A stretch of 64,000 nucleotides of DNA from Methanomassiliicoccales archaeon (GTDB lineage Archaea; Thermoplasmatota; Thermoplasmata; Methanomassiliicoccales; JACIVX01). Under the pieces are notes generated by a model. It saw only the letters and a program-made list of their open reading frames with translations. It was not told where the DNA came from and did no database searches. Position numbers and translations under genes: made by a program. The DNA lies in the NCBI GenBank assembly GCA_038850735.1, contig JAWCLO010000005.1:1-64000 (forward strand), in the 5' to 3' direction. This document shows, piece by piece, positions 2,638 through 45,579 of the stretch; within the stretch, counting starts at the first letter, position 1; each line of letters starts with the position of its first letter.

Positions 2638-2730
2638 AGCCACTGGAGGGATTCGAACCCTCGACCTACGCCTTACCAAGGCGTCGCTATTTGGCGGCGC
2701 TCTTCTACGCTACCGCTAAGCCACAGTGGC
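2638..2730 (-). tRNA. tRNA-Thr (GGT) with an insertion/intron in the D arm
   Basis: Acceptor arms GCCACTG and CAGTGGC pair perfectly. The anticodon arm is ACGCC-TTGGTAA-GGCGT, giving anticodon GGT, and the T arm is GAGGG-TTCGAAT-CCCTC. The stretch between position 9 and the anticodon stem is 37 nt, whereas GCTTAGCGGTAGAGCG (16 nt) would be expected for an archaeal tRNA-Thr. About 21 nt near 2689-2709 are therefore extra, and I interpret them as a short intron in the D arm. Pairing of GCGG with CCGC with a TAG bulge resembles a bulge-helix-bulge, though less ideally than in the tRNA-Lys of this window. It lies upstream of and divergent from rqcH. Confidence 0.85.
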
Positions 2731-36921: not shown

Positions 36922-45059
<8,138 letters not shown>

Positions 45060-45063
<4 letters not shown>

Positions 45064-45323
45064 CCTCTTATTACCATTCTATATGCCACAAAAATCTCTG
45101 CAGTCGAACTTTTCCGAACAATCTTGATAATGCGTCCTTCTTCGATGGGGCCATGAATCTTTTCCAGCACCTGTACGCACGCATCGCTTTTCCTTATTTT
45201 GGGAAGCTGGTCTCTTGTGATTCGTAACTCCGTCAACACTTTTTGAGCTTCTTCTTCAGAAAGCAGGTGGTGCTCCGGTACTAGCTCATGCTCTAAAACA
45301 TTAAATTCAATAACATCAGACAC
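45060..45323 (-). CDS. rpoH: DNA-directed RNA polymerase subunit H
   Basis: This is the archaeal counterpart of Rpb5's C-terminal domain (87 aa): [31 protein letters not shown] and VYRxVxxx-type ending AYRMVIRG. The start is GTG at 45323, preceded by GAGGTGA at 5 nt spacing. It opens the polymerase operon, and a TATA box lies about 30 nt upstream of the predicted transcript start region. Confidence 0.95.
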
Positions 45324-45445: not shown

Positions 45446-45579
45446 CGGGCCCGCGGGGATTTTCGAAGGCCTTGGGGATCCGAGGCCTTTTCGAACCCCG
45501 GGCCATCTGGTTAAAAGCCAGATGCTCTTTCTAGGGATGCTCGACATCGAAGAATCCTACCTAGCTGAGCTACGGGCCC
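45446..45579 (-). tRNA. tRNA-Lys (TTT) with two introns, one in the D-loop and one in the T-loop
   Basis: Acceptor arms GGGCCCG and CGGGCCC pair fully; the anticodon arm TCTGG-CTTTTAA-CCAGA gives anticodon TTT. The D arm is interrupted: GCTC-AG-CTAG-GTA-GGAT, a 15-nt loop, ATCC-CTAG-AAA-GAGC. This forms an exact bulge-helix-bulge with a 4-bp helix CTAG/CTAG and 3-nt bulges GTA and AAA; cutting each after its second base leaves the standard D arm and a 30-nt intron (about 45529-45558). The T-loop holds 37 nt instead of 7 between CGGGG and CCCCG, with AAGGCCT pairing to AGGCCTT and TTCG to CGAA, giving a second 30-nt intron (about 45461-45490). A TATA-like TTTAAATA lies upstream at 45625-45632. 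Confidence 0.9.

Follow-up and report, generated by a model that had tools for sequence, protein, structure and literature searches.

Strong comparative support for D-loop and T-loop introns in a tRNA-Lys(UUU) gene of Methanomassiliicoccales

Introduction

Can a tRNA sequence that is interrupted in both its D-loop and its T-loop be a working tRNA-Lys(UUU) gene, and is the splicing endonuclease of its host fit to process it? This question is raised by a locus next to the RNA polymerase genes of an archaeon that its RpoB neighbours place in the Methanomassiliicoccales. Positions 20/21 and 59/60 are both among the known sites of noncanonical introns, and tRNAs with multiple introns have been described from Thermoproteales, Thaumarchaeota, Methanopyrus, Methanothermobacter, ARMAN, Korarchaeum and, recently, Asgard archaea (PMC4090602, PMC4033280, PMC8450103, PMC11291895), so that a gene of this design belongs to a known kind. 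According to reviews, euryarchaeal alpha2/alpha4 endonucleases accompany few, single introns at canonical positions, and a specific EndA loop coevolved with noncanonical introns (PMC4090602, PMC4033280, PMC6379350, PMC12397907). A review of 2014 knew of no alpha2 archaeon with noncanonical introns other than Korarchaeum (PMC4033280).

Results

Structure of the locus

The gene lies in the window, by which we mean the whole 64,000-nt stretch of DNA that was analysed. Its parts and neighbours are the following (nt numbers count from the tRNA 5' end).

45446-45579, minus strand: tRNA-Lys(TTT) gene, 134 nt, two introns
45559..45579, minus strand: exon 1, nt 1-21, positions 1-20, 3' end AGCTAGGT
45529..45558, minus strand: D-loop intron, 30 nt, position 20/21, nt 22-51, sequence AGGATTCTTCGATGTCGAGCATCCCTAGAA
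45490..45528, minus strand: exon 2, nt 52-90, A21 to position 59
45513-45515, minus strand: anticodon TTT, inside exon 2
45460..45489, minus strand: T-loop intron, 30 nt, position 59/60, nt 91-120, sequence AAGGCCTCGGATCCCCAAGGCCTTCGAAAA
45446..45459, minus strand: exon 3, nt 121-134, position 60 to the discriminator G73, CCA not encoded
45060..45323, minus strand: rpoH-like ORF, 87 aa, from the ORF list, directly 3' of the tRNA gene
41461..45063, minus strand: rpoB, unsplit gene of RNA polymerase subunit B, 1200 aa, basis of the species tree and of the synteny comparison

The 87-aa ORF is presumably rpoH, an assignment based on the adjoining rpoB and on general knowledge. The introns sit between T20 and A21 and between A59 and T60. 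Taking out the two 30-nt inserts had been predicted to leave a textbook tRNA-Lys, and this was borne out: the resulting 74-mer GGGCCCGTAGCTCAGCTAGGTAGAGCATCTGGCTTTTAACCAGATGGCCCGGGGTTCGAATCCCCGCGGGCCCG has all conserved positions and equals the uninterrupted tRNA-Lys that intronless relatives carry at the same site upstream of rpoB, exon 1 included. Neither ARAGORN nor Rfam at the gathering threshold detected the locus; a whole-genome Rfam search returned a sub-threshold fragment of 15.8 bits and nothing more.

Both introns form bulge-helix-bulge (BHB) type motifs

In the D-loop intron, a central helix of 4 bp is formed by exon CTAG and intron CTAG and is bordered by the bulges GTA and AAA, in agreement with the original prediction. 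In contrast, the GGAT/ATCC pairing, which had been taken for the outer helix, is the inner helix (h') of the intron. On the outer side, a 2x3 internal loop (AG opposite AAA) replaces a clean bulge and is followed by the D stem. The central helix of the T-loop motif consists of exon TTCG and intron CGAA with the bulges AAA and AAT. It stacks directly on the T stem GGGG/CCCC, which serves as outer helix, and the inner helix AGGCCT/AGGCCT leaves one extra unpaired T opposite bulge 1. The AAGGCCT/AGGCCTT pairing noted earlier does exist, but it is the intron's own helix and not the conserved central one. Measured against the strict hBHBh' form, the T-loop motif comes close and the D-loop motif departs from it through a relaxed outer side.

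The full precursor folded into a cloverleaf with both intron hairpins (-62.1 kcal/mol, z = -4.85), and 0 of 200 shuffled precursors were as stable. When the introns were shuffled, the required helices arose in 0.08% (D) and 0.03% (T) of the trials.

In each 3-nt bulge, EndA-family endonucleases cleave between the second and the third base. The cut sites predicted by this rule coincided exactly with a change in the alignment: predicted exon bases were invariant and the adjoining predicted intron bases were variable. Among distinct D introns, bulge 1 read GTA 42 times and GTT 10 times, and bulge 2 consisted of two variable bases followed by an invariant A. Bulge 1 of the T introns began with an invariant AA, its third base being any of the four letters, and bulge 2 had two variable bases before an invariant T. 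The register was unchanged in L246 and L247, two loci of the same genus with GTT in D bulge 1. A simple intron scorer favoured a 29-nt D intron, which would give a 75-mer product; the comparative cut-site data back the 30-nt version and with it the predicted cuts that restore the expected D arm.

A two-unit splicing endonuclease without CSL or ASL

The genome encodes RtcB ligase and, in a single ORF on the same contig as the window, EndA.

G000:C5:94261-95316: EndA gene, 352 aa, two units, assigned by its PF01974 matches

The C-terminal unit carries the catalytic residues (Tyr, His, Lys) with FRVY, HH and VKK conserved, and the N-terminal unit is degenerate, F standing in place of Tyr and K in place of His. 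An AlphaFold model (mean pLDDT 87.9) matched the M. kandleri fusion 5x89, which is the closest solved structure, and A. fulgidus alpha'2 (1rlv and 2gjw). The protein thus appears to be a two-unit alpha'2-like enzyme and is predicted to form a homodimer. Compared with the CSL-bearing chimera 3p1y, no CSL/ASL insert was present before the first conserved strand of the catalytic unit (stretch FYGKKIGDALQLS), and the site of the crenarchaeal CSL and the ARMAN-2 ASL was also without insert in 30 order relatives and 36 further aligned EndA proteins. The three-unit epsilon2 form was looked for as well; at two units and 352 aa EndA does not have it, and the genome holds no epsilon2 or (alpha-beta)2 enzyme. 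Classification of the endonuclease, for which the original prediction had named the epsilon2 and alpha2beta2 types, therefore ended with neither. The number of PF01974 matches in EndA and the Lys intron state followed no clean rule.

Residues 103-112 of the N-terminal, noncatalytic unit form an FRVFPRGGTP loop that is strongly conserved in the order, with several invariant residues. Related forms occur in intron-rich families, and the loop is degenerate in Thermoplasmatales and Poseidoniales-like families.

Enzymes of the alpha'2 class have been described as narrow in specificity (PMC6379350) and as limited to canonical BHB motifs (PMC4033280). Together with the 2x3 outer loop of the D-loop motif, this class description counts against splicing by the EndA of this genome. 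From earlier work, homodimeric archaeal enzymes are reported to cut BHL-like motifs as well (PMC8707768), and A. fulgidus EndA cut a BHL intron in a full-length pre-tRNA (PMC6379350). In view of these reports the T-loop motif should pose no problem and cutting of the relaxed D-loop motif by an alpha'2-like EndA is plausible by analogy. The broad specificity that splicing had been expected to demand falls away for the near-strict T-loop BHB, for which the enzyme described here should suffice.

The one relaxed side of the D-loop motif would also fit removal of the introns, real in this case too, by an EndA that was broadened in this lineage, for instance through the N-terminal PRGG loop, rather than by an ordinary alpha'2 enzyme. 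The invariant residues of that loop in the order and its degeneration in Thermoplasmatales and Poseidoniales-like families point in the same direction. However, intron-poor relatives within the order retain a similar loop, and no new EndA determinant may be needed given that homodimers can cut BHL-like motifs (PMC8707768). We regard such a broadening as unlikely.

Conservation and covariation in relatives

Dozens of named relatives were gathered through shared gene order, the tRNA gene lying just upstream of rpoH-rpoB, and 87 distinct tRNA-Lys genes (TTT and CTT) were parsed. The complete set of four central pairs was present in 50 of the 52 distinct D introns and 45 of the 46 distinct T introns. 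Where exon bases of the D-loop had changed, as in L115 (GTCG/CGAT) and L116 (CCAG/CTGG), the intron had changed to match. Moreover, the inner helices (5 bp) paired better within than between sequences (D: 4.50 versus 3.52; T: 4.30 versus 2.95). Six species of the family shared 74 of 74 exon bases, all of exons 1 and 2 among them, and differed in their introns. This conservation and covariation of the BHB motifs strongly supports a tRNA-Lys(TTT) with two noncanonical introns, one in the D-loop and one in the T-loop, as had been predicted from the sequence.

The same data make it very improbable that the inserts stay in the mature tRNA as an enlarged D-loop and T-loop. Their motifs stand in splicing register with conservation shifting exactly at the cut sites, their length ranges from 22 to 119 nt between relatives, precise intronless versions exist, and the two loops that they occupy have to dock with each other in the tRNA elbow.

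The longest T-loop introns of tRNA-Lys(TTT), 66-119 nt, were found in L085, L087, L088 and L089, which form one clade and have an intron in the anticodon loop as well. They are located about 2.4 kb into the loci L085, L087 and L088 and about 0.4 kb into L089. A search of these long introns for nested Rfam RNAs gave no family match; a nested small RNA in them is possible. In L214 the 3' helix of the tRNA-Lys(TTT) T-loop intron lies outside the usual CGAA register, and a search of its genome (G117, 99% complete) gave no PF01974 endonuclease match.

The intron pair is shared across the order and lost once in a large group

The pair of D-loop and T-loop introns recurs at identical sites throughout Methanomassiliicoccales and elsewhere in Thermoplasmatota. 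Such an arrangement had been expected to be striking in a euryarchaeal genome; far from being a surprise of one genome, it is common within the order and also occurs in further families of the phylum. We compared 68 loci along a species tree of 68 RpoB proteins. Introns were found in D- and T-loop in 26 loci, in D-, anticodon and T-loop in 12, which thus have a third intron, in the D-loop only in one, in D- and anticodon loop in one, and in none of the loops in 28. Five changes were needed to explain these states on the tree.

The 28 intronless loci (e.g. L056, L069, L102) form one group with a support of 97, which contains Methanomethylophilaceae, termite Methanoplasma and gut genomes. Because L052, the sister of this group, has both introns, D- and T-loop introns were lost together on the one branch leading to Methanomethylophilaceae and their kin. 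No single-intron intermediate was seen on this branch among the 68 loci, and the joint, exact loss hints at replacement by a spliced copy. More distant Thermoplasmatota families have D-loop, T-loop or D- plus anticodon-loop introns at identical sites. The tRNA-Lys gene is without introns in the class-mates f8, f9 and f10 and in the marine-type families f24 and f32.

Other tRNA genes of the genome

Introns are present in 22 of the 42 tRNA genes located by Rfam matches and manual reading, a set from which four expected isoacceptors are missing. Seven genes contain eight D-arm or T-loop introns, namely Lys(TTT) with two and Lys(CTT), Ala(CGC), Val(TAC), Thr(GGT), Thr(CGT) and Leu(CAA) with one each; arm-level positions alone were taken from the intron scorer, which is ambiguous for anticodon-loop introns. 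One of these genes lies in the window.

2638..2730, minus strand: tRNA-Thr(GGT), interrupted once in the D arm by an intron of about 21 nt, an Rfam match missed by ARAGORN

Outside the window, at L010, the D-loop of Thr(CGT) holds an intron of about 15 nt in a strict BHB. Leu(CAA) with its D-arm intron was detected when the whole genome was searched with the Rfam tRNA model up to E = 10; a match at C1:95178 in this search was a false hit. Trp(CCA), Leu(TAG), Arg(TCT) and Arg(CCG) were not located by the whole-genome search to E = 10 and are probably hidden by introns.

Only two tRNA-Lys genes, TTT and CTT, were found. The T-loop intron of Lys(CTT) is a strict BHB (exon TTCG/intron CGAA, bulges AAA and TTT, inner helix GATTC/GAATC) and is common to genomes of the same genus and family. 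An uninterrupted tRNA-Lys(TTT), which would have spoken against the interrupted gene, was not found in the 1.66 Mb, 24-contig draft, which is 98% complete and could hide an extra copy in a gap. Of the genes seen, the interrupted one alone can thus read AAA. Failure of the standard tRNA finders at the locus would suit a decayed copy with random insertions, lysine AAA codons being read by another tRNA, yet this is highly improbable and already contradicted by conservation, since neither this genome nor two further genus members searched have another tRNA-Lys(TTT), the exons are unchanged, the introns covary and the same pair of sites persists across the order.

Discussion

We conclude with a probability of roughly 93% that the locus is a working gene and, as it appears, the sole source of tRNA-Lys(UUU) in this archaeon. 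The gene would be transcribed as one precursor, in which EndA is expected to cut the D-loop intron at GU^A and AA^A and the T-loop intron at AA^A and AA^U before RtcB would ligate the three exons to the 74-nt tRNA. Because the introns occupy the two elbow-forming loops, the precursor is presumably unable to fold fully before both excisions. Splicing therefore probably precedes or gates later maturation steps.

The gene resembles those of Thermoproteales and other TACK archaea (Sugahara 2008; PMC4090602, PMC8450103) in its small noncanonical BHB introns, including those at 20/21 and 59/60, in the two or three introns per gene and in the failure of standard tRNA finders. In contrast, those archaea have (alpha-beta)2 endonucleases, with the CSL loop in Crenarchaea, whereas the lineage studied here belongs to Thermoplasmatota and its enzyme has two units and no such loop, and the two Lys introns are old and were passed on vertically, with no recent burst. 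More than one intron per tRNA gene is also known from archaea of euryarchaeal grade, Methanopyrus kandleri and Methanothermobacter thermautotrophicus (PMC4033280). These were reported as isolated species, whereas D- and T-loop introns recur here across families of one phylum. The wetland Asgard lineages Atabeyarchaeia and Freyarchaeia likewise combine abundant noncanonical with multiple introns outside Thermoproteales (PMC11291895), but they belong to another lineage and have a higher load, 92-95% of their tRNA genes compared with 22 of 42 located genes here. Korarchaeum cryptofilum shares the combination of an alpha2 endonuclease with noncanonical introns (PMC4033280); its enzyme has a specific loop, unlike the EndA described here.

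No paper on such introns in Methanomassiliicoccales or Thermoplasmatota was found in the open-licence literature, an incomplete collection with tRNA databases and supplements outside its scope. Within that searchable literature, what appears to be new is that D- and T-loop introns occur over much of a single phylum alongside a two-unit EndA that lacks the loop. A less likely reading is that this enzyme, against the published rule that ties noncanonical introns to endonucleases with CSL or ASL, processes D-loop and T-loop introns, and as many as three introns in one tRNA, over much of Thermoplasmatota, perhaps by means of a new determinant in its N-terminal unit, the conserved PRGG loop.

A widespread lineage that combines a loopless EndA with long-kept D- and T-loop introns allows a direct test of the rule that the loop goes with noncanonical introns, for which one small enzyme and short synthetic RNAs would do. 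Furthermore, common tRNA finders overlook essential tRNAs in these genomes, which affects surveys of tRNAs and codon usage.
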